A stretch of 61,700 nucleotides of DNA, taken from Pseudomonas sp. 21. GTDB lineage: Bacteria; Pseudomonadota; Gammaproteobacteria; Pseudomonadales; Pseudomonadaceae. The stretch spans positions 1 to 61,700 of the forward strand of contig NZ_JYOA01000014.1 of assembly GCF_000955805.1 (NCBI RefSeq). Reading direction: 5' to 3'. The position numbers were made by a program, and so were the translations under genes. This document shows, piece after piece, positions 32,519 through 36,090 of the stretch. Under the pieces are notes generated by a model. The model was not told the origin of the DNA and did no database searches. It saw only the letters and a list, made by a program, of their open reading frames with translations. Each line of letters opens with the position of its first letter. Position 1 is the stretch's first letter.

Positions 32519-34627
32519 ATGCCGAGCATAGATGCCTTCGCCGATCGTCTGTCGAGCTATCTGGGCCCGGACCAGGTCAACCTGGTCCGCCGCGCCTACT
32601 ACTACGCCGAGCAGGCCCATGACGGGCAGCGCCGCCGCAGCGGCGAGGCTTACGTCACCCATCCGCTCGCCGTCGCCAATATCCTCGCCGACATGCACAT
32701 GGACCATCAGAGCCTGATGGCGGCCATGCTGCACGACGTGATCGAGGACACCGGCATCGCCAAGGAAGCGCTCACCGCGCAGTTCGGCGAGACCGTCTCG
32801 GAACTCGTGGATGGGGTCAGCAAGCTGACCCAGATGAACTTCGAGTCCAAGGCCGAGGCGCAGGCCGAGAACTTCCAGAAGATGGCCATGGCCATGGCGC
32901 GCGACATCCGCGTGATCCTGGTGAAGCTGGCCGACCGCCTGCACAACATGCGCACGCTGGAAGTGCTGTCCGGTGAGAAGCGCCGGCGCATCGCCAAGGA
33001 AACCCTGGAAATCTACGCACCCATCGCCAACCGGCTGGGCATGCACAGCATGCGCGTGGAATTCGAGGACCTGGGCTTCAAGGCCATGCACCCGATGCGC
33101 TCCGAGCGCATCCGCCAGGCCGTGAAGAAGGCTCGTGGCAACCGCCGCGAGATCGTCGGCAAGATTCAGGAATCGCTGGTCAACTGCCTCGCCCGCGAAA
33201 ACATGGAAGGCCAGGTCCTGGGCCGCGAGAAGCACCTGTTCAGCATCTACAAGAAGATGCGCGGCAAGCGCAAGGCGTTCAACGAGATCATGGACGTCTA
33301 CGCCTTCCGCATCGTGGTCGACAAGGTTGACACCTGCTACCGCGTGCTCGGCGCCGTGCACAACCTGTACAAGCCGTTCCCCGGCCGCTTCAAGGACTAC
33401 ATCGCGATTCCCAAGGCCAACGGCTACCAGTCGTTGCACACCACGCTGTTCGGCATGCACGGCGTGCCCATCGAAATCCAGATCCGCACCCGCGAGATGG
33501 AAGAGATGGCCAACCACGGCATCGCCGCGCACTGGCTGTACAAGTCCAGTGAAGAGGAAGCGCAGAAAGGCACCCATGCCCGCGCCCGCCAGTGGGTAAA
33601 GGGCATCCTCGAACTGCAGCAACGCGCCGGCAACTCGCTGGAATTCATCGAGAACGTGAAGATCGACCTGTTCCCGGACGAGGTCTACGTCTTCACGCCC
33701 AAGGGCCGCATCATGGAGCTGCCCAAGGGCTCCACGGCCGTCGACTTCGCCTACGCGGTGCACACCGATGTCGGCAACAGCTGTATCGCCTGCCGTATCA
33801 ACCGCCGCCTGGCGCCGCTGTCCGAACCGCTGCAGAGCGGTGCGACAGTGGAAATCGTCACCGCGCCGGGCACCCGGCCGAACCCGGCCTGGCTCAACTT
33901 CGTGGTCACCGGCAAGGCGCGCACGCACATCCGCCACGCGCTCAAGCTGCAGCGCCGCTCCGAGTCGATCAACCTCGGCGAGCGCCTGCTGAACAAGACC
34001 CTCGCCGGCTTCGACAGCCACCTGGAGAAGATCCCGCAGGAGCGCATCCAGGGCGTGCTCAACGAGTACCGCATGGAAGTCTTCGAGGACCTGCTCGAAG
34101 AGATCGGCCTGGGCAACCGCATGGCCTACGTGGTCGCGCGCCGCCTGCTGTCCAGCGAAGGCGAACAGGCGCCCAGCGCCGAAGGGCCGCTGGCGATCCG
34201 CGGTACCGAAGGCCTGGTGCTCAGCTACGCCAAGTGCTGCACGCCGATCCCGGGCGACCCGATCGTCGGCCACCTGTCCGCCGGCAAGGGCATGGTCGTG
34301 CACCTGGAGAACTGCCGGAACATCAGCGAAATTCGCCACAATCCGGAAAAGTGCATCCAGCTCAGCTGGGCCAAGGATGTCACCGGCGAATTCAACGTCG
34401 AACTGCGTGTCGAGCTGGAACACCAGCGCGGCCTGATCGCCCTGCTGGCGACCAGCGTCAACGCCGCCGACGGCAACATCGAGAAGATCAGCATGGACGA
34501 GCGCGACGGTCGCATCAGCGTGGTCCAGCTCGTCGTCAGCGTGCACGACCGTGTGCACCTGGCCCGCGTCATCAAGAAGCTGCGCGCGCTCAAGGGCGTG
34601 ATCCGCATCACCCGCATGCGCAGCTGA
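32519..34627 (+). CDS. spoT: Bifunctional (p)ppGpp synthetase/hydrolase
   Basis: A 702-residue RelA/SpoT homologue. The hydrolase HD domain has His48 and the HDVIEDT motif (72-78). The synthetase region holds [19 protein letters not shown] at about 282-300. The TGS domain (about 388-448, [27 protein letters not shown]) and C-terminal ACT domain (about 625-702) follow. Both catalytic halves look intact. Start ATG at 32519, 60 bases after rpoZ. Confidence 0.95.
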
Positions 34628-34649
34628 TCCCACCCCGTTAGGAGTCGAC

Positions 34650-35030
34650 ATGACCAAGACCGTTATCCACACCGACAAAGCCCCGGCCGCCATCGGCACT
34701 TACTCCCAGGCGATCAAGGCTGGCAACACCGTCTATGTCTCCGGCCAGATCCCGCTGGACCCGAAAACCATGGAACTGGTCGAGGGCTTCGAAGAGCAGA
34801 CCGTCCAGGTCTTCGAGAACCTGAAAGCCGTCATCGAAGCGTCCGGCGGCTACCTGCACGACGTCGCCAAGCTGAACATCTTCCTCACCGACCTGTCGCA
34901 CTTCGCCAAGGTCAACGAGATCATGGGCAAGTACTTCGTCCAGCCCTACCCGGCCCGCGCCGCCATCGGCGTCGCCGCCCTGCCCAAGGGCGCCCAGGTC
35001 GAGATGGACGCCATCGTCGTCCTGGAATAA
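34650..35030 (+). CDS. ridA: RidA 2-iminobutanoate/2-iminopropanoate deaminase
   Basis: A 126-residue trimeric enzyme that hydrolyses reactive enamine/imine intermediates from PLP enzymes such as threonine dehydratase. The catalytic Arg103 lies in [43 protein letters not shown] is the standard N-terminal signature. It follows spoT by 22 bases and is closer to canonical RidA than the dad-operon copy at 5,560. Confidence 0.93.
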
Positions 35031-35057
35031 GCGCTGCGAAAAACCTACGGGGCCCTC

Positions 35058-35326
35058 GGAGGGTCTGATGTCGTTTCGACGTGGCCGCGACGGAGCCGCA
35101 TTTTGCGCAGGGCGAGGCGCGAATCGTGTGGTTTGGTCATTCCAAATGAACGATGAGTAACGAAGCGCTGCGCAAAATGCGGCCCGTCCCTTCGGGTTGT
35201 GCGTCAAATCACGCCATGCGTCGTTGCGGGGCTAGGTAAGGGAGCGCCATTACCGTCGCCCCGCGTCTAGCCTGGCGTGATTTGACGCGGCAACGCGGCT
35301 CACGGCGAAACGACATCAGACCCTCT
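35058..35326. repeat. Large nested inverted-repeat element (three-arm, cloverleaf-like)
   Basis: The whole gap between ridA and the next gene folds on itself. Outer arms 35059-35083 and 35301-35325 pair over 25 positions with one mismatch (core GTCTGATGTCGTTTCG). Inside are arm A, 35095-35110 with 35168-35183 (16 bp perfect, GCCGCATTTTGCGCAG), and arm C, 35201-35216 with 35273-35288 (16 bp perfect, GCGTCAAATCACGCCA). A short CCCG/CGGG hairpin lies between them at 35183-35196. Arm A contains a nested ATCGT..TTTGG..CCAAA..ACGAT hairpin; arm C contains GCGGGGC/GCCCCGC plus GGTAA/TTACC. No coding frame of interest. Symmetry is as expected of a structured repeat, a cruciform or a structured RNA. 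Confidence 0.85.
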
Positions 35327-35355
35327 CCCCGTTCCTTTGTCTGCAAGGAGCAAAC

Positions 35356-36090
35356 ATGCGTCGCGCCCTGATCCTGAGCGCCCTGATCGGCCTGCTCACC
35401 GGCTGCGCCGGCACCCCGTCCGACCCTTCCGGCGTCTGGGTCAACCAGGCCGCCATCGATGCCGCCGGCAAGGGTGGCAAGCTGCGCGAGGCGCTGCTGG
35501 CCTACGGCCCGAACCTGGAATGGAAGCTGGACACCAAGGCCAGCCAGGCCACCTTCAGCAACGGCTTCGAGCTCGGCGAAGGCCAGCTGACCGCCGAAGA
35601 TCCCAAGCACTACCGCGTCGACTTCTACGGCAGCAACCAGGAATCCCTGGAGCTGGACGGCAAGGAGCTGGTGCAGGTGGGCAGCGACAACTGGCCCGAG
35701 CAGCGCTTCCTGCGTCCCAAGCAGCAGCCCGCCGCGCAGAGCCCGGCCGGCAGCACCTTCGAGAACGCCCTCTACGCCGCCTACCTGAACGGCACCTGGA
35801 TCATCGAGGAAGGCGAAGGCAAGGGCAGCAAGGTCAAGTTCGCCGCCAACGGCAGCCTCGAAGGCATGCCCGGCTTCGACCGCTACGCGCTGTGCCTGGC
35901 CGGCGACTGCGCCGCCATGAGCGGTGACAACGACAGCATCTGGCTGCAACAAGGCCAGCAGGGCCGCGAGTTCCTGTTCGAGCGTGACGGCGACAAGCTG
36001 GAGCTGTTCGAGGCGGTGAACCGCGCCCAGTCCGACGAGATGCCGCAATACGCGCCCGGCAACAAGGTCTGGACCCTTGAGCGCGACTGA
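35356..36090 (+). CDS. Hypothetical lipoprotein
   Basis: A 244-residue predicted lipoprotein: MRRALILSALIGLLTGCAG has a classical lipobox (LLTGC). The mature part has two similar-looking halves, each with a W/Y-rich beta pattern around a hydrophobic AAYLNGTW or QAAIDAAGKGG segment, and an internal CLAGDC cysteine pair. I do not recognise a named family. The ribosome binding site (AAGGAG) is good. The large inverted-repeat element ends 30 bases upstream of the start. Confidence 0.75.
   Translation: MRRALILSALIGLLTGCAGTPSDPSGVWVNQAAIDAAGKGGKLREALLAYGPNLEWKLDTKASQATFSNGFELGEGQLTAEDPKHYRVDFYGSNQESLELDGKELVQVGSDNWPEQRFLRPKQQPAAQSPAGSTFENALYAAYLNGTWIIEEGEGKGSKVKFAANGSLEGMPGFDRYALCLAGDCAAMSGDNDSIWLQQGQQGREFLFERDGDKLELFEAVNRAQSDEMPQYAPGNKVWTLERD

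Follow-up and report, generated by a model that had tools for sequence, protein, structure and literature searches.

Related elements

Correia, ERIC and RUP elements are palindromic, intergenic MITEs flanked by TA. None of these three families is known to have two homologous modules in inverted orientation about a C-UNCG-G linker.

Other described systems resemble the element studied here in one respect or another. In Pseudomonas syringae, MITEPsy1 is a MITE thought to use ISPsy2, an IS of the IS5 family, and has a CTAG/YTAA target (PMC3189936). ISPsp10, a Pseudomonas IS of the IS427 group, duplicates TA, and the target supplies the stop codon of its transposase (PMC4133298). The TIMEs of Pseudomonas, which derive from Tn3, are 262 bp long; their cores contain short conserved stretches, and RNA stem-loops have been predicted in them (PMC4133298). 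QMITE1 and QMITE2, MITEs of the gammaproteobacterium Coxiella burnetii, fold very stably and have ends of about 21-29 nt (PMC5896051, PMC10969869).

We analysed a stretch of 61,700 nucleotides from Pseudomonas sp. 21 (hereafter the window). The palindrome between ridA and a lipoprotein gene in this stretch is a 265-bp element, and the mobile unit is at 35060-35324. We read it as a MITE with IS5-type ends and a cloverleaf core of inverted modules, moved in trans by an IS5-family transposase (probability roughly 0.86). A MITE with IS5-type ends is an already known kind of element. At 265 bp and with no credible ORF, the element lies within the MITE size of less than about 500 bp without a transposase gene, and its terminal inverted repeats are 25 nt long with one mismatch. 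Its copies are dispersed and have a target duplication (TA/TA at 34 of 59 loci; empty site CCTAGGC in three relatives of one copy) that is not visible at the window copy. Its ends are shared with autonomous elements, both at 12 of 14 IS loci and, for a second end type, in genome G340.

The element also differs from each of the described systems. MITEPsy1 is 100 bp long, with 18-nt ends of another sequence and a 4-nt duplication, and the available text on it describes no paired-module cloverleaf (PMC3189936). TIMEs have 38-bp ends of Tn3 type and duplications of 5-6 bp and are usually present in single copy, on which description we set them apart (PMC4133298); our element has TA flanks and GGGTCTG ends of IS5 type. 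The QMITEs, which have direct repeats of another length, are likewise set apart by their description, and QMITE1 was reported to be without orthologues in other genomes (PMC5896051, PMC10969869). In the literature searched, with most subscription papers and ISfinder outside it, we found no description of the element or of a shared two-module core.

REPs and REPINs are palindromes of 20-40 bp with a high copy number and an association with RAYT, unlike this 265-bp unit with its IS5-type ends. The original prediction, made from the sequence of the locus, had called the element larger and more ordered than a REP or a terminator. This was correct, yet the element sits inside a former terminator-like hairpin.

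Structure of the element

The features of the locus are listed below; the two gene names are putative and come from the first reading of the sequence.

34650-35030, + strand: ridA (putative name), upstream neighbour
35047-35058, + strand: left half of the terminator-like hairpin that the element interrupts, downstream of ridA (ACGGGG...); intact in relatives
35060-35324, + strand: complete cloverleaf element, read as a MITE; module A before module B; linker reads CCC-TTC-GGG
35061-35083, + strand: left terminal inverted repeat, GGGTCTGATGTCGTTTCG...; 84% identity (19 nt) with ends of IS5-family ISs
35087-35190, - strand: hairpin module A (inverted copy); model R3, 82.4 bits; arms 35095-35113 and 35165-35183
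35188-35196, + strand: linker mini-hairpin CCC-TTC-GGG; a C(UNCG)G loop if + strand RNA, a C(GNA)G loop if - strand single-stranded DNA
35194-35296, + strand: hairpin module B; model R3, 86.2 bits; arms 35201-35219 and 35270-35288
35301-35323, - strand: right terminal inverted repeat
35325-35340, + strand: right half of the interrupted terminator-like hairpin (CCCCGTTCCTTT), intact in relatives
35356-36090, + strand: lipoprotein gene (putative name), downstream neighbour

The outer arms are at 35059-35083 and 35301-35325 (25 nt each, one mismatch), and the GGG...CCC of the mobile unit spans 35061-35323. Each of the two hairpins, A and B, has a pair of 19-nt arms that match at 95% and include a perfect 16-bp run. 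Between the hairpins is a central mini-hairpin of nine bases, CCCTTCGGG. The nested arms of the original prediction, with 25-nt outer arms, two perfect 16-bp runs and a short hairpin, are thus real. As it had also stated, no credible gene was seen within the element; the ORFs of at least 50 aa that overlap it run antisense. Of the 325-bp gap, the other ~60 bp consist of the split terminator-like hairpin and the leader of the lipoprotein gene.

The predicted folds were extreme on both strands. For 35040-35345 as RNA, the + strand folded at -194.7 kcal/mol (z -14.2) and the - strand at -176.1 kcal/mol (z -12.8), and 0 of 100 shuffles were as low in either case. For 35059-35325 as DNA, the z values of the two strands were -14.7 and -13.3 (0 of 200 shuffles each). 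Either strand of 35060-35324 folds to a four-way junction.

When the whole 61.7-kb window was searched with model R3 at E<=1, there were only two matches, both in the element: 35194-35296 on the + strand (86.2 bits) and 35087-35190 on the - strand (82.4 bits). Model R1 was made from hairpin B and detects hairpin A too, in reverse orientation; for example, the two matches at locus L007 scored 121 and 69.6 bits. Because R3 and R1 match both hairpins on opposite strands, A and B are two copies, in inverted orientation, of a single module of ~103 nt. With the modules inverted and a linker hairpin between them, either strand can fold into the four-way-junction cloverleaf.

Insertion at the ridA locus and empty sites

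The ridA and lipoprotein flanks were present in all 25 genus genomes searched, that of Pseudomonas sp. 21 included. In all 24 others the element was absent from the locus, where only 5-87 bases separate the matched flanks, which leaves no room for it. The junction was readable in 23 of these 24 genomes (all but G012), and 22 of the 23 junctions read ACGGGG...CCCGTT, which is a terminator-like hairpin whose short tail is rich in T; the junction of G017 is a different GC-rich hairpin. The intact hairpin in relatives reads ACGGGGCC...GGCCCCGTT, and for five relatives the computed folding energy of the junction hairpin was between -10.3 and -20.4 kcal/mol. In the window, the element occupies the loop of this hairpin, and its halves are left at 35047-35058 and 35325-35340. 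The window element is an insertion private to Pseudomonas sp. 21 among the 25 genus genomes.

These empty loci bear on two options that the original prediction had left open. A structured RNA gene belonging to the ridA locus was rejected, because 24 of 24 other genomes have no element there; the lack of a match above the Rfam gathering score and an inconsistent strand signal, both described below, also stand against an RNA dedicated to the locus. A cruciform exapted at the ridA locus, structuring the chromosome or recruiting a protein, would agree with the extreme DNA fold of both strands. However, with the locus empty in the 24 other genus genomes and copies scattered at other loci, we consider such a role highly improbable.

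The window copy is flanked by GA/TC rather than TA/TA, so no target duplication is visible there. The copy in G014 reads CTA-GGG...CCC-TAG, and the empty site in three relatives reads CCTAGGC; the nearest relative of this copy, G004, has CCTGAGC at the empty site, with no TA. Among 59 independent loci (elements with GGG-type ends and a recognised linker), 34 read TA-GGG...CCC-TA. The remaining 25 were not TA/TA: nine had complementary non-TA dinucleotides, the GA/TC of the window included, and 16 had other flanks. The empty sites in relatives fit a duplication of TA.

Ends shared with IS5-family insertion sequences

The end pattern TAGGGTCTGTTGACGTTTCG, with at most two mismatches, was found in 29 of 56 relatives, and its reversed control in none. 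Around unpaired ends in genome G026, we found an IS of 855 bp whose ends are of the same type and whose single ORF, of 249 aa, matched Pfam DUF4096 and DDE_Tnp_1 and the NCBIfam IS5 family (276 bits, cutoff 110). IS5-family ISs with element-type ends (NCBIfam NF033580, transpos_IS5_3) are ~810-860 bp long. Like elements of this family, they have TA/CTAG flanks and ends of 18-20 nt that read TAGGG(T/G/C)CTGTTGACGTTTCG or ..TTCCCGTTT..; we take them to be IS427-like. IS5 relatives were present in 9 of 198 family genomes, with 15 matches, and 12 of the 14 loci read among these had ends of the same types.

An IS5 relative was found in 7 of the 19 element-carrying genomes searched. G340 had five IS5 matches; the three that were read are ISs of ~808 bp whose ends, TAGGGCGTGTTAACACTAAT, closely resemble those of cloverleaf elements in other genomes (L262, L268, L296 and L297). 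The IS5 relatives of G577 had other ends (TAGATAGTGTCGTCAC), and in five further genomes convincing ends around the IS5 relatives were not found. Only the relatives in G340 had element-like ends among those read in element-carrying genomes. The genome of Pseudomonas sp. 21 had no IS5 relative at E<=1e-60 and, therefore, no present-day mover was found there.

Compared with IS ends, those of the elements were 95% identical over 20 nt in L041, 90% over 20 nt in L262 and 84% over 19 nt in the window copy. The interiors, compared by blastn, shared no stretch longer than 15 nt. Since the IS5-family ISs have only their ends in common with the element, which itself has no transposase, we infer that the MITE was moved in trans. 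A DDE transposase of the IS5 family, supplied in trans, would bind both outer arms and insert the unit at TA sites, in many cases that of a stop codon. At the ridA locus, the insertion would have entered the terminator loop and done little harm to the host. IS630, hinted at by the TA flanks and an IS630 gene beside L037, was considered as the mover and set aside, as IS5-family ISs carry the same ends.

Many types of outer arm occur across the elements (GGGTCTGTTGACG, CTAGTACTCTTTCAAGG, AGAGCCTGTCTC, TTAACCCGGCAAC and ATACCAAT), and single genomes such as G821 and G577 carry several of them. Types CTAGTACTCTTTCAAGG and AGAGCCTGTCTC are among several for which no IS was identified in the genomes examined. 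For types CTAGTACTCTTTCAAGG and GAGCCTATCTCGATGGGAA, no IS-sized pair of ends was seen by eye among the matches listed. When 14 loci with a single end were inspected by eye, transposase letters were seen only in L107 (IS3-like). In L170 (G026:C106), an IS5-type left end is followed, as read by eye, by an apparent transposase region of IS3 type; this locus is perhaps an IS copy interrupted by another IS.

Position relative to genes

With genes called by a rough GC3 method, no copy among 40 was wholly inside a called gene, though several calls overlapped an element. Among 62 gene ends that faced an element at 66 loci, 28 lay at a distance of 1-9 nt (19 of 39 and 9 of 23, by our own tally), so that an element often starts at a stop codon. 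A TA target followed by GGG gives TAG, and insertion there would restore and keep the stop.

Copies and distribution

A second copy in the genome of Pseudomonas sp. 21 (G000:C3:64349-64612) is 81% identical to that in the window. At E<=0.001, 19 of 25 genus genomes, our own included, had a match, which in G002 and G007 was only a piece of 38 or 65 bases. The hairpin B pattern detected 51 loci in genomes of Pseudomonas, Azotobacter and Halopseudomonas, and some copies carry one module only, or a shortened one. Four plasmid records from Azotobacter, Pseudomonas aeruginosa and Halomonas have the element at 69-80% identity. The window element had no match in phage records, and one exact module A pattern had 0 matches in viral contigs. 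This second genomic copy and the cross-genus family, together with the empty sites, TA flanks and IS5-type termini, bear out the mobile repeat that the original prediction had offered as one option.

We surveyed the class with R1 and the phylum with R3, which was built on 51 modules, at a threshold of 1e-4 per genome in samples that both include the genome of the window. R1 matched 73 of 274 genomes (61 of 222 genera) and R3 112 of 398 genomes (57 of 212 genera), counts that rest on rough E-values and were made without a shuffled-genome control. At 46 of 58 loci from these searches (own tally), a second, inverted module was beside the first, and the outer arms around such pairs were often unrelated. 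Among 29 loci outside the training set of R3, 21 had the inverted pair (7 of 7 in the own family and 14 of 22 in others), and some of the eight misses fall where a contig ends. L291, L294 and L295, which are copies from AT-rich genomes, show the same plan by eye, with the second module below threshold, and a stretch similar to them occurs in Pseudoalteromonas plasmids. When the AT-rich relative from G357, and not the window element, was used as the query, no match was found in E. coli genomes.

MITEs are usually classed by their ends, and the interior is taken as filler. Here the interior is shared, across 57 of the 212 genera by R3, while the ends change. The element thereby offers a case, open to test, for a conserved folded core in bacterial MITEs that does not depend on their transposase.

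Covariation and the conserved core

The original prediction had named recurrence with compensatory changes as support for a conserved structured element, and both were found. In addition to there being more than one copy, 74 of 102 fold pairs were changed on both sides across 38 copies, with 375 double-change cells against 82 in shuffles, although these numbers are not probabilities, as the copies are related and the structure was derived from the window sequence. The same pairs were paired in 94.3% of cells, and slid controls in only 36-40%. The alignment (A3) contains the 56 aligned copies minus 15 orthologous ones and minus L020, L068 and L069, in which module A is strongly divergent or short. 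Double changes were present in 28 of 32 module pairs.

When genera were compared, every one of the 15 columns conserved at 90% or more fell within columns 27-80 of 107, the apical half of the module. The basal stem has no such column, and both it and the outer arms vary. In integron attC sites, with R and L boxes bound by IntI, the conserved part is basal, in contrast to this apical conservation. Within the Pseudomonas-type set, identity was 0.75 in apical and 0.74 in stem positions of module A, 0.81 and 0.85 in those of module B, 0.69 in the outer stem and 0.94 in the linker. Of 138 elements that contain a central CC-3nt-GG motif, 125 had the linker CCC-TNC-GGG, and each of the four bases occurred at N; the tally excludes 80 inverted-end stretches without this motif, many of them there by chance. 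RNA loops of the form C(UNCG)G have unusual stability, as do DNA loops of the form C(GNA)G. The linker is thus stable as RNA on one strand and as DNA on the other and does not tell the strand. In five elements with TTAACCCGGCAAC-like ends (L254, L263, L264, L267 and L353), a longer, different linker replaces the CCC-TNC-GGG mini-hairpin.

The cloverleaf might be a functional RNA that is co-transcribed, has a UUCG tetraloop and acts on the mRNA through stability, RNase processing or regulation. The strong covariation, the near-invariant apical columns across genera and a linker that is C(UNCG)G with every N are all in keeping with this. So is the orientation at tandem-gene loci in the first set of 40, where 25 of 33 elements were in the sense direction (25:8). 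However, the bias was gone in the added loci alone (9 sense and 8 antisense); the pooled count was 32 sense to 16 antisense (p 0.029), with genes called by the rough GC3 method and the element bounds of the added loci estimated from pattern position. On the + strand, stems in the Pseudomonas-type alignment had more A.C than G.U mismatches (106 against 51 cells), which favours the - strand, but the outer arms of 66 non-redundant elements had 41 A.C and 33 G.U, and folding energy had no strand preference (38 of 66). We concluded that the mismatch and orientation data do not establish a transcribed strand. Moreover, with inverted modules no one strand has both in the same sense, and Rfam 15 gave no match to the element above the gathering score, either in window positions 34600-35800 or at 20 loci in other genomes. 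Considering also that the orthologous locus is empty in 24 other genomes, we regard a functional RNA as unlikely.

Another explanation is purely selfish DNA, in which covariation is a by-product of template switching that perfects long palindromes and the fold is unselected. The complementary flank dinucleotides in 9 of the 25 loci without TA/TA hint at arm-to-arm copying past the borders of the element, a process by which covariation would arise with no selection; only these nine loci suggest that the arms are homogenised. The lack of a consistent strand signal in the wide set and the similar apical and stem conservation in the Pseudomonas-type set would also be expected. Nevertheless, the confinement of all 15 conserved columns to the apical half and the constancy of the linker (0.94 identity) are left unexplained, and arm copying alone does not explain the apical conservation across genera. 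As a full account, selfish DNA with an unselected fold seems doubtful to us.

We favour DNA-level hairpins over transcribed RNA as the cause of core retention. In the MITE moved in trans by an IS5-family transposase, the stems would be kept complementary partly by copying from arm to arm, through template switching or conversion. The apical loops and the linker persist while the outer arms switch type, and for this reason they may be held by a need common to many hosts, such as foldback of single-stranded DNA or a common host factor. As a tentative extension, the two-module cloverleaf could be a conserved nucleic-acid machine of its own that spread through Pseudomonadota by repeatedly acquiring different IS ends. 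Its apical loops would then be functional and read by a common host factor as folded single-stranded DNA (or RNA), leaving stems and ends free to change.

Related and reduced elements

A relative of 205-206 bp with identical outer arms (GAGGGTCTGCTGACGTTTCG...) is present at G000:C2:330410-330614 (L095). It apparently occupies one orthologous locus in the 11 genomes aligned (L095, L086, L087, L089, L092, L096, L098, L100, L101, L103 and L077; 12 loci were tried), where it is 93.5% identical and the adjoining DNA is 99% identical on one side. From this alignment, it is possibly a domesticated copy. At L079, L084, L173 and L154 there are hairpins of ~50-75 bp with little beyond two element ends, some of them flanked by TA.

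In proteobacterial genomes, a covariance model of the core could serve to annotate palindromic gaps that lack an explanation, and perhaps also contig breaks. In G414 and G429, many contigs begin ~120-310 bp from an element end, which suggests that these repeats may break draft assemblies.
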